A stretch of DNA of 52,709 nucleotides from a virus. The stretch lies in IMG/VR virus record IMGVR_UViG_3300047300_000727, positions 1 to 52,709 of that record. The stretch is one strand, 5' to 3'. This document shows positions 1 through 33,028 of this stretch, piece by piece. Below the pieces are notes generated by a model, which was given only the letters and a program-made list of their open reading frames with translations, did not search any database and was not told the origin of the DNA. Position 1 is the stretch's first letter; every line of letters starts with the position of its first letter. A program made the translations under genes and the position numbers.

Positions 1-127
1 TTCCAACCGAGCGCAACGCGTCTACCATCACAATCGCTCCCGGCTCAACATCACAATCCATCGAACTGTACCTTGGTGCTACAGGTCTCACAGCCTCAAC
101 ATCTGGTCTCTCAGCTCGCTACAACAG
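1..127. repeat. Direct repeat copy 1 (127 bp, identical to 32067-32193)
   Basis: I compared base by base: positions 1-127 match 32067-32193 without a mismatch, and base 128 (a) differs from 32194 (g). Downstream similarity continues with mostly third-position changes. Both copies lie in the same reading frame of homologous adhesin genes. The copy starts at the very first base of the window, so its true left limit is unknown. Confidence 0.97.
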
Positions 128-1091
128 AACACGCACAGCCTCTGTAAGCATCCCGCTGGTAGCCCGTACAATCGCTCAGGCGTGGACTAGCGGTGGCTTT
201 GCTGAGGTAGACGCTACCAATATGCCGGGAGTCTACAGACTCGACCTGCCTGATGCTGCACTGGCTGCAGGTGCTGACGACGTAACAGTCGTGGTGCGTG
301 GTGCATCTGGTACTAACGGTGCGGTAATGACGGTGAAGCTGAGCAGTGGTGGCTTGACATCTGCACAGACTGCCTCGGCTGTCTGGGGTGCTGACCCAAC
401 ATCGTATGTGGCAGAAACAGCATTCGGCGGCGTAGTCAACGCAACAAGGAGCGTTGCAGGAAATACAGAAATACTCGCTCAGAATACGCCATCTGCCGTA
501 TGGGATGAACTAACTACAAATCATACAACTCATGGCACATTCGGTTACAACTCACTTCGTGCAGATCAGGCAAGCAAACAAGGACTTGTGACATTAAGTT
601 CATCTGGAAATGTGAATAGAGTTGATGCAGATGTTCATGCTATTGCAAATGATATTGATGCTGCGACTGAGCTCAAAGGTGCTCTTTTACATAATGGCGT
701 CGACTACATCAGCGCAAATATGCTGAATGCATCAGCAGGTTCACCATCCATCGGTCCATACACAGTCCTACCTTCGGGAGCAGGTGCAGACAACATCGTT
801 GACCTCAACGTCGGCACAGCTTCACCGCTGGTGCTGAATCTGCTTGATGGTTCCGGCGCACCATTCAATGCATCTGGAGCGACAATCACTGCCACGGTAT
901 ACACCGCTGGAGGCTCCACAGTGACCACGTACACGGGTTCAATCATCGCAGGGTATATCGGTGCCATCAGCGTGCCATTGTCGACTGCAGTCACTGCAAC
1001 GTCTGCAACGTATACAATGCTAGTGAGTGTTGTCATCGGGACAACCACCACGGTATTCGGACCACTGAAACTGGTGGTCAGGGCTATCTGA
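1..1091 (+). CDS. Tail adhesin/fibre protein, C-terminal part (cut by window edge)
   Basis: The frame is open from base 3 with no start codon, so the gene begins outside the window; about 362 residues are visible. The first ~140 residues are nearly identical to residues ~376-515 of the complete 694-residue protein at 30944-33028, which starts with a beta-helix-like domain. A variable middle part follows, then a beta-sandwich-like C-terminal domain that ends in a T-T-V-F-G-P-L motif. This suggests a tail-tip or receptor-contact protein with BppU-like domains (inferred from fold-like pattern, not proven). The internal ATG at 222 is not the start, since homology runs through it. The stop overlaps the next ATG. 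The stretch 590-720 is more A/T-rich than its flanks, as in a mosaic gene. Confidence 0.7.
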   Translation, partial: PTERNASTITIAPGSTSQSIELYLGATGLTASTSGLSARYNRTRTASVSIPLVARTIAQAWTSGGFAEVDATNMPGVYRLDLPDAALAAGADDVTVVVRGASGTNGAVMTVKLSSGGLTSAQTASAVWGADPTSYVAETAFGGVVNATRSVAGNTEILAQNTPSAVWDELTTNHTTHGTFGYNSLRADQASKQGLVTLSSSGNVNRVDADVHAIANDIDAATELKGALLHNGVDYISANMLNASAGSPSIGPYTVLPSGAGADNIVDLNVGTASPLVLNLLDGSGAPFNASGATITATVYTAGGSTVTTYTGSIIAGYIGAISVPLSTAVTATSATYTMLVSVVIGTTTTVFGPLKLVVRAI

Positions 1092-1441
1092 TGAACATCA
1101 TTCCGACATACGAAGACCCGACACAAGTACAGGCATTCTCCGTGATACTCGGTGAAAACGTGCCGTACAACCTGCAGTTGATTGACACCAACGGGACAGC
1201 CGTTGATGTCACTACAGGCACGCTGTCGGTGAGCTTCACGAACAACGCGACAGGTGGAGCATACACATTTCCGTCAGGAACGACGGTGGTCACAAAGTCA
1301 TTCCCTGGACAAGGTGTCATCACGGTGAACCTGCCGACTGCATGGTCAACATCTGCAGTGGTTAGGATGACTGTGACATACACGAACGGCGCCATCGTTC
1401 GATTGTTCGGTCCTGTGCTGGTCACGGTGGTTGCACCATAA
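1091..1441 (+). CDS. Small Ig-like/BppU-like beta-domain protein
   Basis: A 116-residue protein whose ATG overlaps the previous stop by one base (TGATG), so the two are probably translationally coupled. It is rich in T, V, S and N, with no transmembrane segment and the alternating pattern of a beta-sandwich. Its end (L-F-G-P-V-L-V-T-V) matches the ends of the adhesins at 1-1091 (V-F-G-P-L-K-L-V-V) and 30944-33028 (T-F-G-P-F-L-V-Q-L), so it looks like a free-standing copy of their C-terminal domain. Block B has no such separate gene. A virion surface or baseplate accessory role is inferred from position only. Confidence 0.6.
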   Translation: MNIIPTYEDPTQVQAFSVILGENVPYNLQLIDTNGTAVDVTTGTLSVSFTNNATGGAYTFPSGTTVVTKSFPGQGVITVNLPTAWSTSAVVRMTVTYTNGAIVRLFGPVLVTVVAP

Positions 1442-1887
1442 TGGATGCCGTGACCCGTGTCGACCTATCTGGATTCAACAAAGCGAATGGTATCTTCCGT
1501 GGAATCGATCGCGAACTCCGCATCGCGTGTGAGTACACCATCAAGCTCGCGAAGTCCGAGATGATGATGCCGAAGCATGGCACAGAGATTCAGTACTATG
1601 TCGGCAAGCAGACGTTCAGTGTGAAGACACGCAAAGAGCGTAAGCGCCGGATAAAAACGCACATTCAGTCTGCACCAGGCGAAGCACCAGCCATCCGCAC
1701 TGGTCAACTCTACAACAGTTTCTTCAGGCATCCGGGAGTGCGCGAGCTCGAATACATTGTCGGTGTCAACTCGCCATACGGGCGATACTTGGAACTTGAG
1801 CTCGACAGACCATTCCTGATTTCCAGTGGCACCCGAATGGGGCGTATTCTAGTGGAAAGGGTGAAGGCACTGTTCGATGGCATTTGA
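1441..1887 (+). CDS. HK97 gp10-like head-tail/tail completion protein
   Basis: 148 residues, between the adhesin and the tail-terminator-like gene, the same place as the gp10-like gene of block B (33029-33409). It is basic (a K-T-R-K-E-R-K-R-R stretch near residue 60), has a T-G-Q-L-Y-N-S motif like the T-G-x-L-x-x-S of gp10 proteins, and a Y-G-R-Y-L-E-L-E motif like the usual Y-(A/G)-x-Y-x-E/L signature, followed by a P-F-L segment. Family knowledge places it at the head-tail interface. The ATG at 1441 overlaps the previous TAA (TAATG). The 3' end overlaps the next gene by 11 bases. Confidence 0.65.
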   Translation: MDAVTRVDLSGFNKANGIFRGIDRELRIACEYTIKLAKSEMMMPKHGTEIQYYVGKQTFSVKTRKERKRRIKTHIQSAPGEAPAIRTGQLYNSFFRHPGVRELEYIVGVNSPYGRYLELELDRPFLISSGTRMGRILVERVKALFDGI

Positions 1888-2356
1888 GGCGTTCGATGTT
1901 GATCAGTGGCTGTTCAACCGCCTGCTGTCCGATACTTCGCTGATGGACCTGCTGGCGGTCGACAACCGTGCTCCGAACTATCAGCAGTGCGTCTACATGC
2001 ACGTCGCGCCGGAGAAGGACCCTGTGACACTTCAGGCTGTCCAGTTTCCGTACATCGTCGTCAGACGAAGTGGAGACGGCACAGCCGATGAAACATCCAT
2101 CGGTGGCAACCGGGCTGTCGTCAAGCAGCTGTACACGGTGACAGTGTGGGACAGTCAGAGTGGTGCAGTTTCCTACGCCAGGACACGCGCCATTGCAGAT
2201 CGCGTGGACGTTTTACTGAACATGCAGTCGGTGACAGTGACTGCCGGTGCTGTGTGGCTGAATCGGAACGGTAGTGATATCGCGATGACTCCACAATCAG
2301 ACGGTCGGGTGGACTGTGGCATCCTCCAGACCTATGTCGCCACAATAACCCCATAG
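1877..2356 (+). CDS. Tail terminator / DUF3168-like tail completion protein
   Basis: 159 residues, located between the gp10-like gene and the tail-tube gene, the usual place of the tail terminator that caps the tube and joins it to the head. Central F-P-Y-I-V-V-R-R-S-G-D-G resembles the P-Y-I/V-V-x-x-x-x-G motif of DUF3168-type proteins, and a later R-x-x-A-x-R-V-D-V-L-L helix is also typical. The block B gene at 33406-33822 holds the same place with P-Y-V-I-I-E-E-I-G-G. The start lies inside the preceding gene. The function is inferred from order and a short motif. Confidence 0.55.
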   Translation: MAFEAFDVDQWLFNRLLSDTSLMDLLAVDNRAPNYQQCVYMHVAPEKDPVTLQAVQFPYIVVRRSGDGTADETSIGGNRAVVKQLYTVTVWDSQSGAVSYARTRAIADRVDVLLNMQSVTVTAGAVWLNRNGSDIAMTPQSDGRVDCGILQTYVATITP

Positions 2357-2366
2357 GAGTAGGATA

Positions 2367-2795
2367 ATGCCTAAGTTTCTCGCCAAAGACGCCACAGTGG
2401 TCATCGGCTTCGGACCATTTGTGGACGGTACTGTCATCGCAACATTTTCAGCTGCGACCAGTGTCACTGGAACCGCGAAGTCGCTCAGTATCGTTCGGTC
2501 TGCAAACACCGAAAACGTGTCTGCCATCGGAGATTCCTTTGAGCAGACAATGCCTGTGTCGTATCAGGGTTCAATTAATGCTGAGTTCTACGTGACCGGT
2601 GCGCCTATCTTCGAAGGCAAAGTCGGATATGCCGTGAAGCTCACAATCGACGTTGACGGTGCTGGTACCGCTGGAAGCATCAGTCTGGTTGGTGTCGTTA
2701 CAGATCAGACACTGAGTCTGAACCCCGAATCCACTCAAAGCGAATCAGTTACCATCAAGCTTGGTGTCGCTGGATTGGCAGGGTGGACCATCTAA
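2367..2795 (+). CDS. Major tail tube protein (block A)
   Basis: 142 residues, beta-rich, directly before the frameshifted chaperone pair and tape measure, which is where siphoviruses encode the tube protein. A strong AGGAG ribosome site precedes the ATG (ATAGGAGTA leader); the same leader precedes the block B tube gene at 33832, fitting a highly expressed structural gene. There is little direct sequence likeness to the 155-residue block B pair, so the call rests on order, size, start signal and the S-L-x-P-E-S-T-Q-S-E-S region near the end. The TAA stop overlaps the next ATG. Confidence 0.65.
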   Translation: MPKFLAKDATVVIGFGPFVDGTVIATFSAATSVTGTAKSLSIVRSANTENVSAIGDSFEQTMPVSYQGSINAEFYVTGAPIFEGKVGYAVKLTIDVDGAGTAGSISLVGVVTDQTLSLNPESTQSESVTIKLGVAGLAGWTI

Positions 2796-3169
2796 TGGGA
2801 CTGGCTGACCTCAAAAAAGCACCGAAGAAAGAACAGAAGGACCTGCTGGTCATTAACCTTCAGCCATACATCGGCGAGGAAGCATATCTGCGATTCCGTG
2901 AACCACGCGCTGCAGACTATTTTCCAAGCGCTGAGACAAACCAGAAACAGGCGCTTCTCTACCCTGAGTTTAGCGCCGGCATGTTGAAGGTTGTCCAGTT
3001 GATGGCAAAGTGCTACGAATCCGGACCCGAAGATGGCGACACTTTTGACGCGTTCAAGTCATTCGGCGATCTGGCACGCGAGCAAAAAGAACTGTTCATG
3101 GTGGTTGCTGGTGAGTTCAACACCTACTATCCACTCGACCTTGAGGGAACATCGGTCCCAAACGACTAG
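2795..3169 (+). CDS. Tail assembly chaperone, short form (gpG-like)
   Basis: 124 residues, starting with M-G-L-A-D-L-K-K at the TAATG overlap with the tube gene; an ATG four codons earlier lies inside that gene and is less likely. It sits between tube and tape-measure genes and carries a slippery heptamer just before its stop, as in lambda gpG/gpGT. In that family the short form is made most of the time and helps tape measure and tube assemble; neither form ends up in the virion. Confidence 0.75.
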   Translation: MGLADLKKAPKKEQKDLLVINLQPYIGEEAYLRFREPRAADYFPSAETNQKQALLYPEFSAGMLKVVQLMAKCYESGPEDGDTFDAFKSFGDLAREQKELFMVVAGEFNTYYPLDLEGTSVPND

Positions 3170-3351
3170 ACGGAGCCAGCCAGAACATACTCTATACGTG
3201 TGTGAGCTGGCTCCATCGACATCCATCTGAAGTCGACCTGACTGTTTCACAGGTTGCTGAGGTGCGATATATCGGCTCCATCTGGGAGCAGGCAATCAAG
3301 GATGGGCTGGAAGCAATCCTTGAAACTCTGGCAAAACGGAGCATGTTATGA
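2795..3351 (+). CDS. Tail assembly chaperone, long form by -1 frameshift (gpGT-like)
   Basis: Translation in frame 0 up to the heptamer at 3157-3163, then one base back, reads on as R-L-D-G-A-S-Q-N-I-L and stops at 3349-3351, overlapping the tape-measure ATG at 3348. The extension contains W-L-H-R-H-P-S-E-V-D-L, closely similar to W-R-R-H-P-L-E-V-D-L in the frameshift product of block B, so this otherwise start-less frame is real coding sequence. Known lambda-like biology: the T part binds the tube protein while the G part coats the tape measure. Confidence 0.8.
3157..3214 (+). promoter_or_regulatory. -1 ribosomal frameshift signal: CCCAAAC plus stem-loop
   Basis: CCCAAAC at 3157-3163 is read C-CCA-AAC in frame 0 (X-XXY-YYZ), two codons before the TAG at 3167. 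Eight bases downstream GGAGCCAGC (3172-3180) pairs perfectly with GCTGGCTCC (3206-3214), a 9-bp stem with a 25-base loop. Heptamer, spacing and stem match canonical stimulatory elements. Confidence 0.85.
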
Positions 3352-4883
3352 ATCTCGGCGTATTCGAAATCATCTTCAAAGCGACAGGGGCTGACGGTCT
3401 CAAAAAGTCCCTGTCTGATGTCAAAGGTGAAGCAACGAAAACCGGTGATTCACTCGAAGACAGCGCAAAGAAAATGAAGTCGTTCGGTGACACCATGGCG
3501 AAACTCGCCATTGGTGGCGCCTTGATGTCATTTGGAAAGGCGGCATTCGATGCAGCTGTCGAGATGGAAGAACTGAACGCTCGACTGGTTGCCATCACGC
3601 ACAGTGGTGACAAAGCATCCAAGATCATGAAGGTTGTTCGTGAAGTCGCGAAACCTTCGCCATTCACCACGAAGCAACTCGCGGAAGCAGCGACACAGCT
3701 CGAAGCGTTCGGTGTTAACGCACAGAAAGCACTACCGAAACTCGCGAAGCTCGGAGCTGCCTTCGGAGCAGATGAGGAACACCTCCGCTCACTTGTGAGC
3801 ATTTTCGGGAAACTGAACCAGGGAATCATGCCGGACACAGAGCAACTCTCGATGTTCGGCTTGAATAAGGCGATGCTACAGGCTGAAGGGCTGAAGTTCG
3901 ACAAGAACGGCGCACTGCTGTCATCGGCATCCGAAGCGCTTGACGCACTCCAGCGACTCATCGAAAAGAAGTACGGGAACATCTTCGACATGATGGGTGG
4001 CACGACGAAGGCTGGTCTGGCAACCGTTCAGGATGCGTACACTCAACTGCTTGAATCCTTCGGACAGTTGGAACTTGCCGCCTTCAAAACGCTTGCACCG
4101 CCAATCATCGAGATGATGACAAAGTTGACCGAGTTCATGAATGCACTGAAGACTGATGGTTCGGTCGCACAGGGTGTCATGAAGGCGCTCGCTGCTTCGC
4201 TTGCGTTCGCTGGTTCGATGCAGGTCATCAATGGATTGAAGGCGCTCATTCCTATCTTTCAGGGAATATCCAAAGCACTGAAGGCTGTCGCAGCTGGTGA
4301 AGCGCTTGTGAGTGCGCTCGGTGGATGGGCTGGAATCGCCAAAGTCGCAGCCGGTCTGGTTGTCGCTGGTGGTGCAATCTGGGCAATGGACCAGATGTTC
4401 AACAGTATGGAAAAGGGCAACGCCATGAAGGGCGATGCTGCTGACCTACAAAAAGCGATGAGTGGCGGTGGTATCCCCGGTGTGACGAATCCGATGGCAA
4501 CTGCCGGCACTGGGCGCAAAGATGGAAGCATGGCATGGATTGAAGGCATGGCACGGATATTCTCGACTGCTGCCATGGTTGCCATTGAAAGCTCGAAGTT
4601 CCGCACAGGCATGGATGACTATCTGGCGCAGATCGCGAAGAATACCGGAACGACTGCGGACCTGCTCGACCTACGAAAACAAACCTTCGGAGGCGGTGCT
4701 CTTGGTGCAATGGGTGTGACTGCAGCCGAACTCCGCGAAGGTGGTCACGGTCCGGTTGCAGCTGGTGTCGGCGTCATTTCGAATGAACTGGTTCCATATT
4801 CGACTGACCTTGAACGCTCCATCAAGCGCGTATTCGCGAACGAGTATCGGAAGCAGTTCGGCAACCTGATGAGGAGACTGTAG
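3348..4883 (+). CDS. Tape measure protein (block A)
   Basis: 511 residues, beginning at the ATG that overlaps the frameshift product's stop. The N-terminal part has a K-K-S-L-S-D-V-K-G-E coiled-coil-like stretch and T-x-x-L-E-E/D repeats, followed by a P-S-P-F-T-T-K-Q-L-A-E-A-A-T-Q-L-E motif; tape measures often show P-F-x-x-x-x-L-x-x-A-A there, and block B has T-P-F-G-V-E-D-F-A. Hydrophobic segments near residues 315-350 fit a membrane-active tape measure. At the usual ~1.5 angstroms per residue the tail would be short, well below 100 nm. The stop overlaps the next GTG. Confidence 0.85.
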   Translation: MNLGVFEIIFKATGADGLKKSLSDVKGEATKTGDSLEDSAKKMKSFGDTMAKLAIGGALMSFGKAAFDAAVEMEELNARLVAITHSGDKASKIMKVVREVAKPSPFTTKQLAEAATQLEAFGVNAQKALPKLAKLGAAFGADEEHLRSLVSIFGKLNQGIMPDTEQLSMFGLNKAMLQAEGLKFDKNGALLSSASEALDALQRLIEKKYGNIFDMMGGTTKAGLATVQDAYTQLLESFGQLELAAFKTLAPPIIEMMTKLTEFMNALKTDGSVAQGVMKALAASLAFAGSMQVINGLKALIPIFQGISKALKAVAAGEALVSALGGWAGIAKVAAGLVVAGGAIWAMDQMFNSMEKGNAMKGDAADLQKAMSGGGIPGVTNPMATAGTGRKDGSMAWIEGMARIFSTAAMVAIESSKFRTGMDDYLAQIAKNTGTTADLLDLRKQTFGGGALGAMGVTAAELREGGHGPVAAGVGVISNELVPYSTDLERSIKRVFANEYRKQFGNLMRRL

Positions 4884-7129
4884 TGGCTACAAAGTGGGGG
4901 CTGAAGGTTGAGGTCGACTGTCCGGAACCGCGTCTGAATAAGGGCAGGCTAGTGATGGGCGCCTATGGTCTGACCTGGGACAAAGCGTTCAGTGACTCAA
5001 CCTGTTTCTGGGACTCGCCTACGCAGTCGCTGATGCCGTTACCACTGCCATTGTCCGGAGCGTGGGAAACGAACTTCAGCGGACTCTATGCGCGTCTGTC
5101 GCTCACTGATCTGGTAGTGACAGGTGGTTCGTGGCGTCAATATCAGGTCAAGGGTGCCGGCGATTATTGGATAGGTCTTGACGACAATCTGACGTACGCG
5201 AGCAACATCTACACGGCTACGTCATACCCTGCGAACAGCGCGTGGTACTTCGGCGTGTGCAACTCTGACACGACATCGAACAGCAACCGTGTGATTATGA
5301 CCATCACATTCGGGTACGTCGCAGCGACTCCGGACACAGTCGGAATCAAGCTCAGATTCTTCGCGAATGGTGGATGTCAGATATTCAAGAATGGCATTCT
5401 CAAAGGGCAGTATGACCAGTCGGATTCGAACCAGACTGCAGGAAGGAATACGCCAGGAACACAGAAGATGACCGGGCAGTATCACGGCGTGTACGTGCTA
5501 CCGCACAAACGGCGTGAACTGCTGGTGATGACTTCGTGGGGGCTGAACTTCAGCCACACATTCGAAGACCTCGACCAGAACAGCACGACGAACACTATTC
5601 TTCCAGCCGGGTACATCCGGACTTTCATCGAGCAGAAACGACCATTCTTCCAAATGGCACCGATTCGCTTCAGCGCTTCGTGCTCGGCATACAGCAAGCC
5701 GATACAGCTGCGCTACGCTCCACCTACAGGCGCAACCTTCAACTGGACGGTGTGGTATGACCGCATCAGTCAAGCGACAGGCGGTGCTGGTGGCACCATC
5801 AGCATCGTGAAGCCAGACGGGACCGCATACACTCCGGATGGTGTCATCGATACCATTCGGGTGAAGGTGACGCTGACATCGAGCGACCAGATTGAAGCGT
5901 TCGGAGTGTCGCTCGCCGAAGCGTGGTATCAGCCAACACCGACAACCACGGCGAACGCTCCAGTGGACATCACGCCATATCTCCAGAATCTTTCCCTGGC
6001 TGTCGATGAGTCAGGGCGAACGACGCTCCACATGTCCGGACGTCGCAAGCGTCTGACGGATGCTGGCGTCCAGCAGGTGCAAATCACCGGAGACCGTCCA
6101 GTGCGTGTGGCGCTCTCTGATGGAGCCGTCACACCAACGTGGTCTGACATCTTCCGTGGCACGCTTCAGCCACCACAGATTCAATATGCGCGAGCTGACA
6201 ACACGACAGATGCGGATATGTCTGCGCTGGTCTTCACTGGGCAGGACAGGTCACACGACTTCACGCTTCAGATGTTCGACAGCGCGGTGATTTACGACGG
6301 CTTCACAATGGAGTCGGCAGTCAAAGACCTTGTGACGTGTTGTGGTTATGCCACAACCGACGTGACGTGGAATGACACATCAGGGTTTACACTGCCACGC
6401 TCATCGGATCTCGCGAAGGGACACGCGAATGTATGTCCACAACGCGGTGACAACGTCAACGGTATGCTGACGAAAATCAAAACCGACTATGCTGCGAACT
6501 GGTTCACTGCTTGGCAACCGACAGCGACCGGGTACAAATACGTCTGGTCGAATCCATCAAGCCTAAGCACGACACCGGTCATCACGCTATACCACAGCAC
6601 GGCTGATGCGAAGGCTCAGGGTGTGGTGGCAGGGCTGGTGTCGAAGCGTGTGATTCGGAAGTTCAGCGCACACTATGAATCACCCGAAGCGAATCAGATT
6701 GTCGTCGTCGGACAGGACCCGCGTGATGCGAGTCTTATATATGCCTTCGGCGCGGATTCAGCATCGATGGACCCGACGACTGCTCCGGCATCGAGACCGT
6801 ACAACTGGCGTGGTCGACCTGTGATGTACATCAACAGTGACCCTGCAATCACAACGCCTGCAGCAGCTGCGCAAGCGCAGACGGTACTTGCGAGTCGCTT
6901 GATGTCAGGGCGCATCCTGATCGAGTTCGAGTCGGATGTGCTGGTCGATGACGCCACGAACAGACCACTGTGGATTGGTGATGTCATCAAGCTCATGAAG
7001 CCGGGAGGAACTGTGGTGCGCGGTATATATCGCATTGTGTCGATTCCTTCGATGAACTTCGAGCGTGAGACATCGACCACCATTCTGCGTCGTGCGCAGT
7101 ATCGCTGTGTCTACATCGGGGCTGGTTAA
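4883..7129 (+). CDS. Distal tail / tail hub protein (block A)
   Basis: 748 residues with a GTG start overlapping the TAG of the tape-measure gene. It lies between tape measure and the giant tip protein, as does the 789-residue protein at 37250 in block B. Near residues 350-420 it has a D-I-T-P-Y-L-Q-N-L segment followed by a domain resembling a hub (R-V-A-L-S-D-G-A, R-G-T-L). The C-terminus has W-I-G-D-V-I-K-L-M-K-P-G-G and R-I-V-S-I-P, a small beta-barrel-like end common in hub proteins. A combined Dit/Tal-type role at the tail tip is inferred from order. The two proteins share little obvious identity, so this part of the tail has diverged. Confidence 0.55.
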   Translation: MATKWGLKVEVDCPEPRLNKGRLVMGAYGLTWDKAFSDSTCFWDSPTQSLMPLPLPLSGAWETNFSGLYARLSLTDLVVTGGSWRQYQVKGAGDYWIGLDDNLTYASNIYTATSYPANSAWYFGVCNSDTTSNSNRVIMTITFGYVAATPDTVGIKLRFFANGGCQIFKNGILKGQYDQSDSNQTAGRNTPGTQKMTGQYHGVYVLPHKRRELLVMTSWGLNFSHTFEDLDQNSTTNTILPAGYIRTFIEQKRPFFQMAPIRFSASCSAYSKPIQLRYAPPTGATFNWTVWYDRISQATGGAGGTISIVKPDGTAYTPDGVIDTIRVKVTLTSSDQIEAFGVSLAEAWYQPTPTTTANAPVDITPYLQNLSLAVDESGRTTLHMSGRRKRLTDAGVQQVQITGDRPVRVALSDGAVTPTWSDIFRGTLQPPQIQYARADNTTDADMSALVFTGQDRSHDFTLQMFDSAVIYDGFTMESAVKDLVTCCGYATTDVTWNDTSGFTLPRSSDLAKGHANVCPQRGDNVNGMLTKIKTDYAANWFTAWQPTATGYKYVWSNPSSLSTTPVITLYHSTADAKAQGVVAGLVSKRVIRKFSAHYESPEANQIVVVGQDPRDASLIYAFGADSASMDPTTAPASRPYNWRGRPVMYINSDPAITTPAAAAQAQTVLASRLMSGRILIEFESDVLVDDATNRPLWIGDVIKLMKPGGTVVRGIYRIVSIPSMNFERETSTTILRRAQYRCVYIGAG

Positions 7130-10174: not shown

Positions 10175-10201
10175 CTATCGGCTGGGAAGGAGTCAGCCTG
10201 T

Positions 10202-10777: not shown

Positions 10778-10824
10778 TGGCTGTCCCGGTGCGTGTATTT
10801 CCAAAATCAACTGGAGGCTAAATA

Positions 10825-22495: not shown

Positions 22496-22496
22496 T

Positions 22497-23810
22497 GTGT
22501 CGTTCGGGGCGTATCTTCGAGACACGCTCCCGAAGTCGTGGACGGCTGATGCTCCGCACATCAAAGCGATCTGTGACGTCATCGACCGTGTGCACAGCGG
22601 TGAGATAGACCGACTCGCCATCCACATGCCACCACGTCATGGCAAGACAGAGACCGTGACCGTGCGTGCGGGGGCATTCTTCAAAGAGATGTTCCCGGAT
22701 GCGAACGTGCTGGTCACAGCGTACAACCAGCGCATCGCGAATCGCTTCAGTCGCAAAGCGCGAACCATCTGCCGTGGACGCATTGACATGGCGTCAGACA
22801 ACCGGGCGCAGGATGAATGGTCAACGTCTGGCGGTGGCACGTACATGGCACGCGGTGTGGGTTCACCACCGACTGGTGTCGGTTTCAAGTACATCATCAT
22901 CGATGACCCGATTCGAAGTCGCGAGGATGCGGAATCACAGGTGTACCGGGACCGTGCAGCCGACTGGTATTCGGATGACCTGTACACGCGCCTGGAACCG
23001 GGCGGTGCAATCATCATCGTGTGCACCAGATGGCATCATGACGATGTGGCAGCACGGGCTGTCGCTTCGGAACCGGACAGATGGCACATCCTGAACCTGC
23101 CGGCAATCGCTGAAGACGATGACGCACTCGGACGTGCTCCGGGTGAAGCTTTGTGGGCTGACAGATACGGTGTCGAGGAACTGGAGCGCATCAAGGGCGT
23201 CATGATGATGAACGGCGGTGAGTATGGATGGAGCGCACTCTACCAGCAAAGACCGACACCACGCGAGGGCGCATTCTTCCGGAGCACTCGCATCATCATC
23301 GAGGATGCACAGCCGAACATCAAGCGCGTTGCACGGGGGTGGGACCTTGCAGCTTCAGCGGGAAAAGGTGACTACACTGTCGGAGTGAAGCTCGGCATCG
23401 ATGACCAGGAGCGCCTGTGGATTCTGGATGTTCAGCGCGGACAATACGACGCCGATGAACGCGACCGAGTGATACGACAGACAGCTGCACTCGATGGCAA
23501 GTCGTGCCGACAGCGACTGCCACAGGACCCCGGACAGGCTGGAAAAAGTCAGGTCATCCATATGGTGCGGAACTTACAAGGATTCCCTGTGAGTTGCAAA
23601 CCGGTGAGTGGTTCGAAGGAACTTCGGGCTGGACCGATATCATCGCAGATCGCTGGGGGAAACTGCTTCATGGTCAAAGCATCGTGGAACGTGTCACTAC
23701 TCGATGAACTGCGAACATTTCCACTCGGCAAGAATGACGACTGCGTGGACGCAATCGCTGATGCGTACGATGAGCTGATGCTCGGTGTCGTGCGTTTTGG
23801 TGCAGTATAA
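22497..23810 (+). CDS. terL: Terminase large subunit (ATPase and nuclease)
   Basis: 437 residues from GTG at 22497, the first start after the small subunit stop; the frame is open upstream within the small subunit gene, so a longer start cannot be excluded. Walker A-like P-P-R-H-G-K-T at residues 45-51, Walker B Y-I-I-I-D-D-P near 135, an E/coupling segment C-T-R-W-H-H-D-D, then the RNase H-like nuclease with R-G-W-D-L-A-A-S near 280, P-Q-D-P-G-Q-A-G-K near 342 and D-D-C-V-D-A near 415. Packages DNA into the procapsid and cuts it. Confidence 0.9.
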   Translation: MSFGAYLRDTLPKSWTADAPHIKAICDVIDRVHSGEIDRLAIHMPPRHGKTETVTVRAGAFFKEMFPDANVLVTAYNQRIANRFSRKARTICRGRIDMASDNRAQDEWSTSGGGTYMARGVGSPPTGVGFKYIIIDDPIRSREDAESQVYRDRAADWYSDDLYTRLEPGGAIIIVCTRWHHDDVAARAVASEPDRWHILNLPAIAEDDDALGRAPGEALWADRYGVEELERIKGVMMMNGGEYGWSALYQQRPTPREGAFFRSTRIIIEDAQPNIKRVARGWDLAASAGKGDYTVGVKLGIDDQERLWILDVQRGQYDADERDRVIRQTAALDGKSCRQRLPQDPGQAGKSQVIHMVRNLQGFPVSCKPVSGSKELRAGPISSQIAGGNCFMVKASWNVSLLDELRTFPLGKNDDCVDAIADAYDELMLGVVRFGAV

Positions 23811-23824
23811 GGACACAATAAGAT

Positions 23825-25801: not shown

Positions 25802-26805
25802 TGCCATCACTTTATGATGTGGCGCGTGAATACCGTTTGCGTCTGCTCGACCGTGAAGCGGCAGCAGTGGCGCAGATGGACACCACGTATCGCAAAGCGA
25901 CTGCCGACGGGCTGAAGCGCCTTCGTGTGCTGGCTGAAGCAATCGCCGATGCGGAGGATGCAGGTGAAGACACAGCTGCGCTTCGCGACATGATGCAACG
26001 GCTGATGGCGATTCAAGATCAGATTCAGACCGAAATCAAGGGGTGGTCGAGTGACGGCGCATCAATCGCCACACGGGCACAAAGCGAAGCCGTGGATGTC
26101 GCAGGGCAGATGCAGTTGCCACTCGCGACAGCTGCGAGTGGAGCACCATCCGAAGCCGTGATGGCGACAACGTGGAACCGATTCGACCCGATGAGCGTTG
26201 AGCAGTTCATCGGCTTCGCTTCGGATGGAACACCGCTTGACAACCTGTTCGCATCCATCGGACCAGACATGAAGCAGATGATCGCGAATGGAATCATTCA
26301 AGGCGACCACAACAGTGTTGTGGCGCGTCGCATGGTGATGGCGTATGACTCACTCGCACCAGCTCGCGCGAAGACAATCGCACGAACGGAGATGCTCCGA
26401 GCATCACGCGAAGCACAACGGCAATCATTCCTGGCGAACAGTGACATCGTGCACGGGTGGATGCGTGCCAGTGCCGGAGACCACAATGTCTGTCCAGCAT
26501 GCTGGGCGCTTCACGGTACGCATCAGGAACTTGCGACAATCGTCCCTACACATCCAAACTGTAGGTGTACCATCGTGCCGGTGATGGACCCGTGGGGTGG
26601 CGAAGCCACCAGCGACCTGATACCGAACGCTGAGACAACCTTTGCCAGACTCTCACCAGAACGGCAGATGGAGGCACTGGGACGCGGAAGATACATGCTG
26701 TACAAAACCGGGACACCACTGTCTGCCTTCGGGCGAGTGGTTGACGACGAACAGTGGGGACCTATAGCGCAAATCGTGCCACTGCGGGAGCTGATAAATG
26801 GATGA
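25801..26805 (+). CDS. Phage Mu gpF-like minor head protein
   Basis: 334 residues. N-terminal half is helical. The Mu-F domain follows: A-K-T-I-A-R-T-E-M-L-R-A-S-R-E near residue 195, then C-P-A-C-W-A-L-H-G near 228 and H-P-N-C-R-C-T-I-V-P near 250; the four Cys and His likely bind zinc. Family members are minor head proteins needed for head assembly. Start overlaps the portal stop by one base (TGATG); end overlaps the protease gene by eight. Confidence 0.85.
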   Translation: MPSLYDVAREYRLRLLDREAAAVAQMDTTYRKATADGLKRLRVLAEAIADAEDAGEDTAALRDMMQRLMAIQDQIQTEIKGWSSDGASIATRAQSEAVDVAGQMQLPLATAASGAPSEAVMATTWNRFDPMSVEQFIGFASDGTPLDNLFASIGPDMKQMIANGIIQGDHNSVVARRMVMAYDSLAPARAKTIARTEMLRASREAQRQSFLANSDIVHGWMRASAGDHNVCPACWALHGTHQELATIVPTHPNCRCTIVPVMDPWGGEATSDLIPNAETTFARLSPERQMEALGRGRYMLYKTGTPLSAFGRVVDDEQWGPIAQIVPLRELING

Positions 26806-27823
26806 GTTGATGTACTTTGGTGATGCAGTCAAAGCGGAACCAGACGGACGTGTCCGTGGTTACTTGGTACGCTTCGGTGGTGAAGACCTGGTCGGTGACT
26901 ACTTCACGCCACAGACAGACTTCGGGCGACCGATGGTGAAGGGTTCCAGCTTCGCGCTGAATCTGTACTATCACCACGGTGCGGACCCACTGATCGGGAA
27001 AACATGCATCGGGACCGGTGTCGTCAAAATGGACGACAAGGGACTGTGGATGGAGTCGCAGATTGACCTTGCAAACGAATACGGAAAGATGGTCGCGAAA
27101 CTTGGCAAGCGAGCACAGCTCGGATATTCTTCCGGAGCGGCTGGTCATCTTGTGGAGCGCAAGGCTGTTGGTGCACGTCAAGAAATTACGCGATGGTGCA
27201 TCGGTGAAGCATCAATCACACCGACACCATGTGAACCACTCAACACTGTCAAGTCAATGATGGATGCATCCTGCAAGCCTATCAAAGAGATGATGGATGG
27301 CGAAGAGGATGACGAAGAGATGGACACGATGGAAGAGGAAGCACCGGCAGTCGGTGACGAATCCTCCCCGGAATCCTTCGCATCCAGCATCTATGGCGCC
27401 ATGGCTGCGAACATGGTCCATGAAGGTATTGAGTTCCTTTATGCGAAGCTGTGCGATGGCGTTTTACAGGTATATGTCGACGGTTTACCGAAGGAATACC
27501 TGCTCGCGCTGTTCGATGGATTTGCGCAAAGGGGCAAAGACCTTGTATCAACTGTTGACGCAGTGGCATCAGCCGAAGTCAAAGCATTCGAAGCAAAGAC
27601 ACGGCAGCCACAAACAGTTCGGGAACTGGAGCATCGGCTGAGGGATTCGCTGATGTTGACTCGAAGCGAGTCGGTGAGACTCGCAAAGTCCGTGTGGGAA
27701 AGTCTGCGGGATGCAGCCACTGAACCCGACATGCAGAAACAGTCGAAGGCTGACGTCAGTGACCTCGACAAAGCGAGAATCCTCGCAGAAATCATGATGA
27801 TGGAGATCGAAAGTGAAGATTGA
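26798..27823 (+). CDS. HK97-type prohead maturation protease (S78)
   Basis: 341 residues. The protease domain spans ~1-160: R-G-Y-L-V-R-F-G near 20, Y-Y-H-H-G-A-D near 57 (catalytic His), L-G-Y-S-S-G-A-A near 112 (catalytic Ser) and I-G-E-A-S-I-T-P-T-P near 138. The remaining ~180 residues are acidic then helical (E-E-D-D-E-E-M-D-T-M-E-E-E), possibly a scaffold-like part fused to the protease. It would mature the shell proteins. The end overlaps the capsid GTG by eleven bases. Confidence 0.85.
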   Translation: MDELMYFGDAVKAEPDGRVRGYLVRFGGEDLVGDYFTPQTDFGRPMVKGSSFALNLYYHHGADPLIGKTCIGTGVVKMDDKGLWMESQIDLANEYGKMVAKLGKRAQLGYSSGAAGHLVERKAVGARQEITRWCIGEASITPTPCEPLNTVKSMMDASCKPIKEMMDGEEDDEEMDTMEEEAPAVGDESSPESFASSIYGAMAANMVHEGIEFLYAKLCDGVLQVYVDGLPKEYLLALFDGFAQRGKDLVSTVDAVASAEVKAFEAKTRQPQTVRELEHRLRDSLMLTRSESVRLAKSVWESLRDAATEPDMQKQSKADVSDLDKARILAEIMMMEIESED

Positions 27824-29174
27824 ATCCCTTAAGCAGCGTCAAGCCGACAGCATCGCTGCACTCAAAGAACTGCTGGCGCTCGACGCACCAGACATGACCG
27901 AAGTCAACCGCCTGAACGACGAAGTGAAGTCCATCACGGACCGCATCGCCATCGCTCGTTCCGTGGCACAGTTCCAGCCTGAACCATCCGAAGATGAGTT
28001 CCAGACCGAACCACAGGTCAAGGCATGGGAGCGACAGGCAATCGGTGCAGGTCCTGACCTCCGCGCATTCGCCGGACGTGACAACAACGAAAAAGCCTAC
28101 AACGCCTACGCTTTCGGACAGTGGATGCGTGCAACCGCACTGAAGTCTGCATCCGCTCGCAAGTGGTGTCAGGATCACGGTGTACTGAAGGCAGCTGATA
28201 TCAAGGCAATGAACGAAGGCACCGGCTCCGCTGGTGGATTCGCTGTCCCGACAATCATTAGCGACCAGTTCGTGTACCTTCGTGAGCAAGCATCCATCAT
28301 GCGTCAGGACGCTCGCAAGTACACGATGACCAGCAACGCGTTGAACGTTCCGGTCATCAGTGGTTCTGTCACAGCTGTGTGGGGCGCTGAAAACACCGCA
28401 ATCACCGCATCCGACTTGACGGTCGCTTCGGTTGCACTTTCTGCTAAGAAGCTCACCGCACTCAGCGTGATGTCGAGCGAGTTGAATGAGGATGCTGTCG
28501 TGAACTTCGCGAGCATTCTCGCGATGGACATGGCAAACAAACTCGGTCACGAAGAAGACCGCGTCTGTTTCAACGGAACCGGTGTCGCCGGTGACGGTGG
28601 AATCACAGGTCTTTGCCAGTACATCTTCGGTCTGTCCGGTACGAAGGCGAACATCGCATCGTTGGTCACTGCACCATCGTTCGTTGCTACCCCTGCGAAC
28701 TTGACGCTCGCGATCTGGCAGTCGCTCGTGGCGAAGCTCCCTGTTTACGCACAGCAGAACGCGAAGTTCTACATGCACAAACAGATTTTCTTCAACTACG
28801 TTGCAGACAAGCTCATCTCGCTTGGTGGTAACAACTACAACGCACTCGCGATGGGTGCTGGACTTCAGCCGACGCTGTTCGGATACCCTGTCCAGTTCGT
28901 TCAGGATATGCCGTCGTCACTCTTGACTACGTCCATCAACACGCCAATCGCTGTGCTTGCTGACCTTTCGAAGGCTGTCGCATTCGGTGACCGCCGTGAG
29001 ATCAGCATCGCCACATCGACCGAGCGCTACTTTGATCAGGACAGCATCGCTGTCCGTGCCATCGAGCGCGTCGGATTCTCTGGTGCAACGGACCCCGGCA
29101 ACGTCAACGCCACCGTCGCATCACAGGTTCCTGGTTCGGCAATCGTTCTGGTCACCAACGCCACCACAGCGTAG
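27813..29174 (+). CDS. Major capsid protein, HK97 fold
   Basis: 453 residues starting with GTG at 27813, after GGAG. Residues 1-~60 form a coiled coil (L-K-Q-R-Q-A-D-S-I-A-A-L-K-E-L-L, N-R-L-N-D-E-V-K-S-I-T-D-R), the delta domain that acts as internal scaffold and is usually cut off. The shell domain follows: S-A-G-G-F-A-V-P-T-I-I near 145, F-N-G-T-G near 252, F-Y-M-H-K near 320 and V-R-A-I-E-R-V-G-F near 425, typical of the HK97 capsid family. Followed by its own terminator, in keeping with high expression. Confidence 0.9.
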   Translation: MKIESLKQRQADSIAALKELLALDAPDMTEVNRLNDEVKSITDRIAIARSVAQFQPEPSEDEFQTEPQVKAWERQAIGAGPDLRAFAGRDNNEKAYNAYAFGQWMRATALKSASARKWCQDHGVLKAADIKAMNEGTGSAGGFAVPTIISDQFVYLREQASIMRQDARKYTMTSNALNVPVISGSVTAVWGAENTAITASDLTVASVALSAKKLTALSVMSSELNEDAVVNFASILAMDMANKLGHEEDRVCFNGTGVAGDGGITGLCQYIFGLSGTKANIASLVTAPSFVATPANLTLAIWQSLVAKLPVYAQQNAKFYMHKQIFFNYVADKLISLGGNNYNALAMGAGLQPTLFGYPVQFVQDMPSSLLTTSINTPIAVLADLSKAVAFGDRREISIATSTERYFDQDSIAVRAIERVGFSGATDPGNVNATVASQVPGSAIVLVTNATTA

Positions 29175-29196
29175 GTTTCCGGAACCGCTACAATGG

Positions 29197-29231
29197 GGGC
29201 AGGGGCTTATGCCCTTGCCCTTATTCTTTTT
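29197..29231 (+). terminator. Terminator after the capsid gene
   Basis: A 10-bp stem (one G-U pair) GGGCAGGGGC/GCCCTTGCCC with a TTAT loop and a T-rich run TTATTCTTTTT. It would lower transcription of the connector genes relative to capsid. The ribosome site of the next gene (TGGAGG) starts at its end. Confidence 0.85.
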
Positions 29232-29241
29232 GGAGGCTTCG

Positions 29242-29736
29242 ATGGCATTCACTCGCACTCAATGTCTGGAACGTCTGGCATGGATGACAGCATCTGACCA
29301 GTATCCGACACTCGACTCAACTGCACTCCAGCAGCTCATCGATGATGCCCTACGGTACACCACATGGACCGCCAGCACGGCATACAACGTCGGTGACATG
29401 ATTGTCCCACCAGTGCCAAACGGGCGCGTGTATCGGTGCGTCATCGCAGGGATATCCGGAACCGACAGCACGATATTCCCTATCTACGCCACGAAGCCGG
29501 GCTACACGCTCTATGACGGCTCCGGCAATCCCGGTCTGACATGGCAAGACTACGCCTTCGCGAATGCTGAACCATATGACCTGCATCTGGCTGTCCGGAA
29601 CGGATGGCTTCGCAAAGCAGCTGCATGTGCGACACAGATCGCAATCGAAGACGGCAACGTCAAAGCGGATATGGAAAAACTCCAGGCGCACTGTCTGAGC
29701 CAAGCACAACGGCATCAGCCGTTAGGTATCGTCTGA
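29242..29736 (+). CDS. Head-tail connector (gp6-like) with a beta-domain insert
   Basis: 164 residues with TGGAGG before the ATG. The first ~40 residues (R-L-A-W-M-T-A-S, L-Q-Q-L-I-D-D-A-L-R-Y) and the last ~60 (A-V-R-N-G-W-L-R-K-A-A-A-C-A, helical) form an adaptor-like helical fold. In between is a ~70-residue segment, T-A-S-T-A-Y-N-V-G-D ... V-Y-R-C-V-I-A-G-I-S-G ... G-L-T-W-Q-D-Y, that resembles small carbohydrate-binding domains (chitin-binding type 5/12-like pattern). Position after capsid supports the connector call; the insert is unusual. Confidence 0.65.
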   Translation: MAFTRTQCLERLAWMTASDQYPTLDSTALQQLIDDALRYTTWTASTAYNVGDMIVPPVPNGRVYRCVIAGISGTDSTIFPIYATKPGYTLYDGSGNPGLTWQDYAFANAEPYDLHLAVRNGWLRKAAACATQIAIEDGNVKADMEKLQAHCLSQAQRHQPLGIV

Positions 29737-30125
29737 TGGCAATCCCTGCGAAACTGCTTCAGGACATCCGGAAGGGACTGTCCGCATACACCTTCACGCA
29801 ACCGGTGACATTGTGGAGGAACATTCCTCAACGCGACGGCATCGGTGGCATTTCGATGACATGGACCAAAGTCGCTGAGTTCAAAGGCATTCTGAAGAAT
29901 GAGTCGAACAGTGAGCAGGTCATCAGCGAAGCCATTACGCAACACTGCTCGTGGTCAATCGTATGTCCGGTTGACATCGAAGTGCGTCAGGATGACAGAA
30001 TATACTTGGACTACACGACACCGTACATGCTCGGAATGTACTTCGAAGTCGCTGCGAGCGACTACGGTAAGACCGATGCAATCGTGCAGAATGTGGACCT
30101 GATACAACACCAAACGGGTGCGTAA
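29736..30125 (+). CDS. Head closure / head-tail joining protein
   Basis: 129 residues. The ATG overlaps the previous TGA. Beta-rich, with T-L-W-R-N-I-P near 27, W-T-K-V-A-E-F-K-G-I-L-K near 45 and an end Y-F-E-V-A-A-S-D-Y, resembling the stopper or head-tail joining family (SPP1 gp16-like). It closes the portal channel after packaging. Last clear head gene of block A; the composition starts to change after it. Confidence 0.65.
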   Translation: MAIPAKLLQDIRKGLSAYTFTQPVTLWRNIPQRDGIGGISMTWTKVAEFKGILKNESNSEQVISEAITQHCSWSIVCPVDIEVRQDDRIYLDYTTPYMLGMYFEVAASDYGKTDAIVQNVDLIQHQTGA

Positions 30126-30165
30126 AACATAACACAAGCGACACAATACATCAGGTGATGACGGA

Positions 30166-30366
30166 ATGAAGATATCTGCCGAATGGATTAGTGTTGTGAT
30201 GGTGATACTGGTGCCGATGATTAGTGGCATCGTGGCACAGCTCAGATTGTTGTGGAGCCTAGAAGGAAAAGTGGACTCCATAACGAGCAACTATCGAACA
30301 GTGATTCGAGAGATCGAGCAGATAAAGCGTCGTTTGGAAGAACTTGAACAGGAGCTGAGACAGTGA
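30166..30366 (+). CDS. Membrane protein with coiled coil, possible holin partner
   Basis: 66 residues: one N-terminal transmembrane helix (I-S-V-V-M-V-I-L-V-P-M-I-S-G-I-V), then a coiled coil (I-E-Q-I-K-R-R-L-E-E-L-E-Q-E-L). The combination recalls XhlA-type lysis accessory proteins but in the reverse order. It overlaps the next membrane gene by four bases, and the pair could be a lysis cassette. The only lysin is far away in the window (10202), but close if block A is circular and its tail genes follow here. Confidence 0.5.
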   Translation: MKISAEWISVVMVILVPMISGIVAQLRLLWSLEGKVDSITSNYRTVIREIEQIKRRLEELEQELRQ

Positions 30367-30572
30367 AGCGTGTACATCTTGGAAAACTCTCTGCAGTCTT
30401 TGCAGCGTCATTCGCTCCGGCATTCTGGGCTGTCGTTGCAGAATCCGTAAACGCCGGACACGTCCGGTCTGATGTCCTGGTCAAAGCGACTGTCGCCGGA
30501 ATCGGCTCAAGCATCGTCGCAGTGTCTGCACTCTTAATGAACGCATACAAGGAAGACAAATCAAATGAATAA
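30363..30572 (+). CDS. Two-helix membrane protein, holin candidate
   Basis: 69 residues: two hydrophobic helices (V-F-A-A-S-F-A-P-A-F-W-A-V-V and I-G-S-S-I-V-A-V-S-A-L-L-M), a short loop, basic start and charged end (Y-K-E-D-K-S-N-E). This fits class II holins. The call rests on topology and on the neighbouring coiled-coil membrane protein. Confidence 0.5.
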   Translation: MKRVHLGKLSAVFAASFAPAFWAVVAESVNAGHVRSDVLVKATVAGIGSSIVAVSALLMNAYKEDKSNE

Positions 30573-30720
30573 ATTCAAACGAGAGCTTGGAGCAGTGATG
30601 GCACTGTACGGGTCTAAGGCTGTAGCGGCTGGTGTCTCTGCTGCGATGAGTGCTGCACTGGGCTTCTTGACGATGCCGTTCAAGGGTGTGCAGGCGAACA
30701 GTTTGAAGGTGGGCAAATGA
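30565..30720 (+). CDS. Short protein, 51 residues, unknown
   Basis: ATG at 30565 overlaps the end of the holin-like gene by eight bases, and its stop overlaps the next ATG (ATGA), so it fits a coupled operon even though it is short. Sequence features: a basic start (N-K-F-K-R-E-L), a small-residue helix (A-V-A-A-G-V-S-A-A-M-S-A-A-L-G-F) that may enter a membrane, and a basic end. Not recognised. Confidence 0.5.
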   Translation: MNKFKRELGAVMALYGSKAVAAGVSAAMSAALGFLTMPFKGVQANSLKVGK

Positions 30721-30944
30721 ACCTGCAGAACTTTCGCATTGAGAAAGAACCTGCGCCTTCTACTGATTGGCGTGTCTTTGGAGACATTGAGGATGACAAC
30801 GGTAACATCTTGGGTACGTTTGGGCAGGATGGTACGAGCGTCAATGTGTGGTGGGTGATGCAGGACGAGCAGTTTCAGTATGGGATTGTTCAACAGTTTG
30901 CAATGATTATGGCGCAGCAGATTGTTCAAGGAACGGCTGAATAA
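30717..30944 (+). CDS. Small protein before the adhesin, 75 residues
   Basis: Coupled by ATGA to the previous gene and by TAATG to the adhesin gene. Beta-rich (W-R-V-F-G-D-I-E-D-D-N-G-N-I-L-G-T-F-G) with a helical end (I-V-Q-Q-F-A-M-I-M-A-Q-Q). Not recognised; position suggests a partner or chaperone of the adhesin. Codon use here is already of the block B type. Confidence 0.55.
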   Translation: MNLQNFRIEKEPAPSTDWRVFGDIEDDNGNILGTFGQDGTSVNVWWVMQDEQFQYGIVQQFAMIMAQQIVQGTAE

Positions 30945-33028
30945 TGGCTACTTATTACGTCAGGACTGACGGAAGTGATACTAATACGGGGACAGGCCCT
31001 GCAACAAATCAAGCGTGGCAGACTATAGGAAAAGCACTAGGTGCTTTTGGCATTGCTCCGGGTGATACGGTTTATATTGCACCTGGTGTGTACAGAGAAT
31101 CTGTGACGGCTGCTTTCACTGACCCAACATCAGAGGCGCAGAGGGTAACTATAGCTGGTAATCCTACAGCCTCGCAGTTCAGTGGTGTGTCTGCTGGGCC
31201 TGTAATACTTACTAACTTTACATCCTCAACCGCTACTACTGGGAATCCAACACTTTTGATTAGTAAATCCTTTGTGACAATAACAGGGTTGAACATCAAT
31301 GGATACGTTGCTGGTGGAGGTGGATTTACCGGGCAGTTTTTTAGATTAGGTGGGCAATCCGGAATTATCACAGATTGTGGTTTTTACACACCGACTAACA
31401 ATGCTGACATTAACTCTGCCATTGCATTAAGACCGTTACAAGGATTACCGGGATTTACAATAAGCCGGTGTATAACATTGGCTCCTATTGTATTGGGGCC
31501 AACATCAGGCACGACTACTGCTTGGAATAGCCAAACTACAATCACAGATTGCATCTTACAAAACTCAAGCGTATATACAAATAGTGCTTGTGTACTATTG
31601 TTCAATGGGGTTGGCGCACATTTTGGAGGGATAACAATACAGAATTGCCGATTTATAGGTAATGCCGGAGTACTTGTTTATGCAGGTCAAAATATGCCAA
31701 CGACATTCCCAACGGATATTAAAAATTGTATTTTTGACACAGTCACAGGGGTAACATCAAACACTAACAATGGACAACTTACAGAGTCCTACAACATTTT
31801 CAACTGCGGTACGGCTAGAACAAATGTAGGTACTGGTACAGGTTCATTAAGTCGTGCTTACATTACTCCAGATTTCAATCTAAGTAGAATTAATGGCTGG
31901 GGTAACTATCCATTTTGGAGTAACCATTCGAGCAGTGCTAGTCAGAATGCAGGTACATCAACAGGCGCACCAGCCGCTGACATCTATGGTGTAACGTGGC
32001 TTGCTCCGAGTACTCCGACGATGGGTGCGATTGAGTACTCTAATGGATCAAACACTGGCACTTATGTTCCAACCGAGCGCAACGCGTCTACCATCACAAT
32101 CGCTCCCGGCTCAACATCACAATCCATCGAACTGTACCTTGGTGCTACAGGTCTCACAGCCTCAACATCTGGTCTCTCAGCTCGCTACAACAGGACACGC
32201 ACAACCTCTGTCAGCATCCCTCTGGTAGCCCGTACAATCGCTCAAGCGTGGACTTCTGGTGGCTTTGCGGAGGTAGACGCTACCAATATGTCGGGGATCT
32301 ATCGCCTTGACTTACCCGACGCTGCACTGGCTGCTGGTGCTGACGATGTCACTGTTGTGGTGCGTGGTGCATCTGGTACTAACGGTGCGGTGATGACGGT
32401 CAAACTGTCCTCTGGTGGTTTGACGGAAGCACAGACTGCATCTGCTGTCTGGGGTGCAAGCCCTGGCCCTTACAATGATGCAACGACAATGGGTGGCATT
32501 GTTAATGAGATAGATACACTTGCTAATGGTATTGATATCAACGTCACGCAAACTCCTATCCTTGTATGGGATGAGTTAAAGTCTAATCATACAACGCCGG
32601 GTACTTTTGGAGATTATCTTGACGCAAAGGTGTCCGACGTTGCGGACACGGCTAGAATACAACTTCGACAAGGCCCGTTCCTTATTAAACAGAATGCTGT
32701 TGATAGCATTATCACCGAAGTAAATCAATTCCTGTCAACAACACCAAACATTGAGATGGTGCTGATTGATAGTAGTGGTGGCTCGGTATCTGTGGCTGGA
32801 TCAACGCTTGTTATGCGTGTGCGAAACCAAGCAGGTACGGCTGTCATAAATAATATTACGCCTACTGTCGCATACGCTGACGGTGGTGTTGTTCGATGGT
32901 CACCAAACCAGTCATGGAATGCGCTTGGTGTAACAACGGCAGGAACATATCGTATTGTTGTAGAGCGTACAATAGGTGGTGTTACAACTACCTTCGGCCC
33001 ATTCCTTGTGCAGTTAAGTAGCGGATAA
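30944..33028 (+). CDS. Tail adhesin with beta-helix N-terminal part (block B)
   Basis: 694 residues. The start, Y-Y-V-R-T-D-G-S-D-T-N-T-G-T-G followed by W-Q-T-I-G-K-A-L, G-D-T-V-Y-I-A-P-G-V-Y-R-E, is the DUF1565/pectate-lyase-like beginning of a right-handed beta-helix, which appears to run to about residue 300 (repeated I-T-D-C, I-Q-N-C-R-F steps). A linker follows, then the segment shared with the protein at 1-1091 (residues ~376-515), then a variable part and a beta-sandwich end. Right-handed beta-helices are common in fibres and tailspikes that bind or cut polysaccharide. No catalytic residues can be assigned. Confidence 0.7.
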   Translation: MATYYVRTDGSDTNTGTGPATNQAWQTIGKALGAFGIAPGDTVYIAPGVYRESVTAAFTDPTSEAQRVTIAGNPTASQFSGVSAGPVILTNFTSSTATTGNPTLLISKSFVTITGLNINGYVAGGGGFTGQFFRLGGQSGIITDCGFYTPTNNADINSAIALRPLQGLPGFTISRCITLAPIVLGPTSGTTTAWNSQTTITDCILQNSSVYTNSACVLLFNGVGAHFGGITIQNCRFIGNAGVLVYAGQNMPTTFPTDIKNCIFDTVTGVTSNTNNGQLTESYNIFNCGTARTNVGTGTGSLSRAYITPDFNLSRINGWGNYPFWSNHSSSASQNAGTSTGAPAADIYGVTWLAPSTPTMGAIEYSNGSNTGTYVPTERNASTITIAPGSTSQSIELYLGATGLTASTSGLSARYNRTRTTSVSIPLVARTIAQAWTSGGFAEVDATNMSGIYRLDLPDAALAAGADDVTVVVRGASGTNGAVMTVKLSSGGLTEAQTASAVWGASPGPYNDATTMGGIVNEIDTLANGIDINVTQTPILVWDELKSNHTTPGTFGDYLDAKVSDVADTARIQLRQGPFLIKQNAVDSIITEVNQFLSTTPNIEMVLIDSSGGSVSVAGSTLVMRVRNQAGTAVINNITPTVAYADGGVVRWSPNQSWNALGVTTAGTYRIVVERTIGGVTTTFGPFLVQLSSG
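32067..32193. repeat. Direct repeat copy 2 (127 bp, identical to 1-127)
   Basis: Exact copy of bases 1-127, inside the adhesin gene and in the same frame. Beyond it the two genes differ mainly at third positions for about 270 bases, then diverge. The distance between the copies is 32,066 bases. Exact 127-base identity ending in a mismatch is also what a branch in a word-length-127 assembly graph leaves. Confidence 0.97.

Follow-up and report, generated by a model that had tools for sequence, protein, structure and literature searches.

The locus raises the question of whether a viral record whose opening bases recur exactly in its interior describes one phage or more than one. The stretch analyzed here, hereafter the window, is the entire IMG/VR record of 52,709 bp. 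Judging from gene content and from its relatives, the record is almost certainly an assembly error joining a complete 32-kb phage (phage A) to half of a different 44-kb phage (phage B). The features considered are collected in Table 1.

Table 1. Coordinates of the features discussed (window positions).
Feature	Position	Strand	Comment
Repeat, copy 1	1..127	+	Putative fork word opening the contig; within the adhesin middle domain
Phage A adhesin, C-terminal part	128..1091	+	Remainder of the middle domain, then A-type C-terminus
Block A, candidate for a complete, circular phage genome (32,066 bp)	128..32193	+	Gene order as in G015, G014, and G016–G019
Probable tape-measure protein, phage A	3348..4883	+	phrog_9959, phrog_28; 90% to G001; no match in B-type records
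Terminase large subunit, phage A	22248..23810	+	phrog_38, E 4.9e-89; 82% to G001, 41–45% to B-type
Major head protein, phage A	27813..29174	+	phrog_10, E 2.3e-47; 95% to G001; no match in B-type records
51-aa cassette gene	30565..30720	+	Same position in six A-like genomes, 80–96%; also in B-type arrays
75-aa cassette gene	30717..30944	+	Relatives encoded in 135 IMG/VR stretches
Phage A adhesin, N-terminal part	30944..32193	+	N-cap, variable part (predicted beta-helix), start of the middle domain; may be common to phage B as well
Deposited ORF, best read as chimeric	30944..33028	+	A N-terminal part fused to the C-terminus of B adhesin-2
Repeat, copy 2	32067..32193	+	Point where a walk round phage A would return and exit into phage B
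Block B, about half of a different phage	32194..52709	+	Tail module, recombination and replication genes; without head or terminase genes
B-type adhesin-2 C-terminus	32458..33028	+	Best nucleotide matches are B-type loci, 75–83%
Probable tape-measure protein, phage B (second tail module)	35328..37250	+	Weak phrog_23574 match; 98% to G004; no match in G001

The 127-bp repeat and the assembly graph

The two copies of the repeat agree base for base, and the match ends at exactly 127, with the first mismatch at base 128. Both copies translate as PTERNASTITIAPGSTSQSIELYLGATGLTASTSGLSARYNR in the same frame of homologous adhesin genes. These two points had been made in the preliminary description, and the repeat search and the common translation bore them out. 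The runner-up exact direct repeats in the window are one of 37 bp, formed by 11-bp tandem units at 52123, and one of 35 bp (291/32357), the latter situated within the same homologous adhesin domain as the 127-bp repeat. When the comparison is extended, 1–391 and 32067–32457 are 90% identical, and all 39 mismatches fall in 128–377. The equivalent of the 127 bases in the relatives is approximately 73–95% identical to that of the window; since the best related copies reach only about 95%, chance and conservation alone do not account for 127 identical bases. An exact scan of viral contigs with 124 bases of the repeat returned no match. The repeat does not correspond to natural direct terminal repeats, as the first and last 50–141 bases of the contig differ and the second copy is internal.

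When an assembly graph is built from words of 127 letters, a contig whose path sets out from an outgoing fork has the word of that fork as its first bases, and the word recurs when the path passes through it again. The window displays this arrangement, namely an exact repeat as long as the word, one copy of which opens the contig (127 bp from base 1). The same length was found in the records of three relatives, i.e., the B-type G004 (44,166 bp) and G009 (44,035 bp) and the A-like G015, whose end repeats measure exactly 127 bp. Because these relatives are closed by exactly 127 bp, the number points to the word length of the assembler, in agreement with the earlier proposal that a repeat of this size marks a fork in an assembly graph. 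Very probably, the 52.7-kb record is a chimeric contig formed at such a fork: a de Bruijn assembler with a word length of 127 would have met a word present in two coexisting phages, walked once round the 32,066-bp circle of phage A, regained the word, and exited along the edge of phage B. The word sits in the middle domain of a cassette, composed of a 51-aa gene, a 75-aa gene, and the adhesin, that is common to several phage groups, and these groups seem to swap the N-terminal part and the middle domain of the adhesin onto their own C-terminal domain.

A chimera formed before sequencing, through template switching during amplification or library preparation in the similar adhesin domain, would find a possible switch site here, as the adhesin genes are 85% similar just past the repeat. 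Nevertheless, template switching alone would not yield a repeat that starts at base 1 and has precisely the 127 bp by which other records are closed, and rare chimeric reads normally lose out to true junctions, so we regard this origin as extremely unlikely compared with a fork in the graph.

Among larger contigs bearing the cassette, the fork signature was also found outside the adhesin, since a terminal stretch recurs internally in G020 (127 bp) and G022 (121 bp). Another contig, G023 (66.6 kb), starts inside an adhesin; its bases 1–651 are 90% identical to 64943–65593, with the first 102 exact, and the similarity ends in the adhesin variable part, possibly representing another fork in the same cassette. 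Internal recurrence of a terminal stretch is a general signature, which by itself is no proof that G020, G022, or G023 are chimeras. As a cheap test, a search for internal recurrence of the first or last word of a contig could reveal further records of the kind described here.

Genes of two phage groups in one record

The genes found in the window include those encoding terminase, portal, head maturation, major capsid, head-tail adaptor, tape-measure, sigma-factor, and primase/helicase-like proteins. The sigma-factor-like protein of phage A (13899–14852; phrog_351, E 4.5e-44) has relatives of approximately 37% in G014–G016. The A-like comparison set consisted of six near-complete genomes (G014, G015, and G016–G019), which were read for gene order. 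A-like genomes measure 31–32 kb, and G015 is a circle of 31,480 bp. Its gene order is composed of the sigma factor, replication genes, terminase, portal, head genes, and adaptor, followed by the 51-aa gene, the 75-aa gene, one adhesin, an Ig-like gene, tail genes, and the distal tail protein. This is the order of the proposed block A circle, the place of the two half-genes of the window being taken by one adhesin gene. Regarding the closest relative of phage A, G001 (31,206 bp) matches window positions 741–12976, 15844–18325, and 21800–30523 at 75–79% nucleotide identity. It bears A-type head genes, then an adhesin region of its own, and then A-type tail genes, and thus spans the closing point of block A, across which the identity is about 78% at the nucleotide level outside that adhesin region. 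Since no module is lacking, the modules are arranged as in complete relatives, and the closing point is spanned by an intact gene, block A is, on the evidence of its gene order, a complete circular phage of 32,066 bp. The preliminary description had proposed a circle of this length, and the circular order and single adhesin of G015 uphold it.

Block B resembles a different set of relatives. The circular G004 matches it to the last base, at approximately 80–87% nucleotide identity outside a few gaps, and the block B genes are 80–99% identical to those of G004 at the amino acid level; of those compared with G001, all but two had no match. The matches of the B-type relatives start at the adhesin cassette and reach the last base of the window. 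The B-type genomes G003, G004, G009, and G010 (loci L009, L010, L017, and L016) bear two tandem adhesin genes, the first with a C-terminus distantly resembling the A-like one (about 37%) and the second with a B-specific C-terminus. Near the end of block B, a tandem array of about five copies of the 11-bp unit CCCGCTACACG is located at 52123–52190.

When the two blocks are compared gene by gene, those A genes for which a clear match exists have G001 as their nearest relative (47–95% at the amino acid level), and B genes are nearest to the B-type phages. Most A genes have no detectable match in the B-type records, and the remainder are 25–71% identical; besides the adhesin, the counterparts comprise a metallophosphoesterase-like protein (about 70%), the distal tail protein (50–58%), and some head proteins (25–52%). 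The GC content is 0.544 in the A core and 0.474 in B. Taken with the comparison of adhesin C-termini given below, the gene table places the opposite sides of the repeat in different genomes. The earlier claim that the fork separates two related phages thus stands as to the fork, which lies between two phage groups, and needs correcting as to relatedness, as the two are not close relatives overall and have the adhesin module in common. A single 52.7-kb phage fits poorly, since the two tail modules of the window have different relatives and the related genomes measure 31–32 kb (A-like) and 44 kb (B-type).

A real molecule, in which homologous recombination within the common adhesin segment had fused the circular genomes of two phages into a cointegrate, would yield the same word graph, and the cassette is indeed common to both phage groups. 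However, the complete relatives of A and of B are separate circles, none of the relatives fetched carries the A and B modules together (the scans covered records other than the neighbors of this one, among which the other half of phage B from the same sample would fall), and the repeat runs from base 1 over the exact word length of other records, as expected of an assembly product. We therefore give a cointegrate next to no credence beside the chimeric contig. Searches among isolate phages by megablast returned no match for either block; the B tail protein had no counterpart there, and the adhesin had only an 11% partial one. A host search among genome contigs, carried out with a capsid alignment, found no host. 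As the record would hold two phages, inferences on gene content, size, or host drawn from it as the single 52.7-kb linear virus it is counted as would be wrong.

The adhesin gene at the proposed join

The two half-genes offer a direct comparison between the circle and the deposited order. Joining 30944–32193 to 128–1091 gives a single intact ORF of 737 aa, which aligns end to end with the 736-aa adhesin of G015 (54%, 671 bits), whereas the deposited ORF matches the same protein more weakly (45%, 518 bits). The C-terminus encoded at 128–1091 matches A-like adhesins along its whole length (54% in G015), and its last 116 aa are 90% identical to G001. In contrast, the C-terminus of the deposited ORF is 75–82% identical to the second adhesin of the B-type phages and only 29–41% to A-like adhesins. 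Because the circle-joined adhesin fits G015 better and the deposited C-terminus is B-type, the ORF as deposited is best read as a chimeric gene. The small gene that follows the A adhesin (1091–1441) ends in a motif, LFGPVLVTVV, resembling the adhesin C-terminus VFGPLKLVVRAI, which suggests a stand-alone copy of the Ig-like domain of the adhesin.

The join is placed after base 32193. The stretch common to A and B ends there and may start farther upstream, with the 127 bp representing the graph vertex only. A different position has to be weighed. The adhesin region of G001, the nearest relative of phage A, is unlike that of the window, which counts against a chimera at the repeat. Were the change from A to B near 30.55 kb, 30565–32193 would belong to phage B alone, and the adhesin N-terminus of A would be absent from the record. 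Consistent with this, the G001 matches end at 30523, G001 lacks the genes at 30565 and 30717, which do occur in those B-type records that extend into this region, and the GC content of 30944–32066 (0.437) is like that of B-type adhesins, a value that is also usual for adhesin N-termini. On the other hand, both small genes precede a single adhesin in 6/6 near-complete A-like genomes, and they precede the adhesin throughout the A-like phages, with G001 being the exception; the nearest copies of the 51-aa and 75-aa genes of the window, taken together, are A-like (88.5%) rather than B-type (82.3%); and the continuous stretch 1–740 of phage A already has the middle domain of the cassette. A change at 30.52–30.58 kb, where similarity to G001 is lost, was consequently dropped, as six A-like genomes carry the cassette here, and we consider it very unlikely. 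With the join kept at the repeat, 30565–32193 may be a stretch common to both phages.

The structural model of the G015 adhesin (mean pLDDT 72.6) has a confident beta-helix-like strand pattern at residues 1–360 and an Ig-like domain at approximately 628–736, while the middle is predicted poorly. Weak matches to solved structures were obtained for the C-terminus (filamin and CopC-type folds) and for longer stretches (polysaccharide lyase and pectin methylesterase), and the searches of Pfam and PHROGs returned no family for either half of the adhesin. The term adhesin is therefore a putative label, derived from the predicted fold, the variability, and the position of the gene between head-completion and tail genes. 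Given this position, and given that the lineage-bound end is the C-terminus, the predicted protein would be attached to the virion through its C-terminus, with the N-terminal part facing the host.

Apparent exchange of adhesin parts and comparison with known systems

Relatives of the adhesin are encoded in 212 IMG/VR stretches. Classified by their other genes, the adhesin loci comprised 123 A-like, 17 B-type, and 17 of neither type, with overlapping loci of one contig counted separately. An alignment of 51 adhesins and the window ORF, covering at least three phage groups, indicated that the parts of the gene differ in their relation to lineage. Identity within and between groups was 59.1 and 58.1% for the N-cap, 27.6 and 27.7% for the variable part, and 85.9 and 84.6% for the middle domain, whose conservation may be inflated as the loci were picked by similarity to the window adhesin or the 75-aa gene. 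For the C-terminus, the corresponding values were 62.5 and 27.0%. Label shuffles reached the observed value in 0/300 cases for the C-terminus, and in 87/300, 149/300, and 89/300 for the N-cap, variable part, and middle domain, respectively. In the first three parts, which make up the N-terminal two thirds, no lineage signal was thus detected, and the C-terminus alone carries one. Additionally, long identical runs were found between otherwise diverged copies from different groups, i.e., 101 bp between an A-like copy and one of neither type, and 92 bp between A-like and B-type copies. The contig G021 (82.5 kb; L113, L127; A-like terminase, 58%) bears at least six adhesin-like copies in a row at 17685–31458.

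From these alignments, N-terminal parts appear to pass between phages and to be placed on C-termini that are specific to the lineage. Frequent exchange, in which the conserved middle domain provides the homology, would be the simplest account. Such swapping would explain why two unlike phages agree over at least 127 consecutive bases at this one place in the record, and the fork probably lies within one adhesin domain because the phage groups exchange adhesin parts; its cause is thus likely biological. The fuller proposition strikes us as evenly balanced, namely that the fork would reflect a recent exchange of the N-terminal part and middle domain between A and B in the sampled community, with identity extending over much more than 127 bp, and that at least three aquatic phage groups would draw on a common pool of N-termini joined through the conserved middle domain to lineage-specific C-termini. 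Among the contigs carrying the 75-aa gene, 10 contig ends fell in the 387 bp of the middle domain versus 5 in the approximately 800 bp of the variable part (p = 0.007); against a uniform spread, the p value was only 0.04, and the enrichment is suggestive only. With a common adhesin pool, the probable host-facing part would be able to pass between otherwise dissimilar phages, and in these groups host range would be poorly predicted by whole-genome relatedness.

Several elements of this case are known from other systems. In the CheckV study, end repeats cluster at odd lengths (55, 77, and 99), which were ascribed to assembler word sizes (PMC8116208). The end repeats of G004, G009, and G015 are likewise exact repeats of an odd word length derived from closing a circle. 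The window differs in that its second copy is internal (32067) and the contig runs on into another phage, so a test based on end repeats overlooks the complete genome. Sets of assembler words up to 127 are commonly used (PMC8172020), and conserved regions leave de Bruijn-type assemblers unable to pair upstream with downstream contigs (PMC11443906). As in the chimeric contigs described in these two studies, two genomes are joined here at an identical stretch of at least one word; those cases concern close strains or species, whereas the present genomes are unlike apart from a single adhesin module, and one of the two is closed. Regarding the exchange itself, the Alteromonas phages A5 and V22 are also unlike phages with a common host-recognition module, pointing to horizontal exchange (PMC10579305). 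In contrast to their module, the one described here is a putative adhesin whose gene is flanked by head genes and tail genes and whose N-terminus is predicted to form a beta-helix; it is the C-terminus that follows the lineage, and no gene for a chaperone was identified. The chimeric contig is therefore an artefact of a known kind, and the exchange of adhesin parts is a new case of a known modularity.
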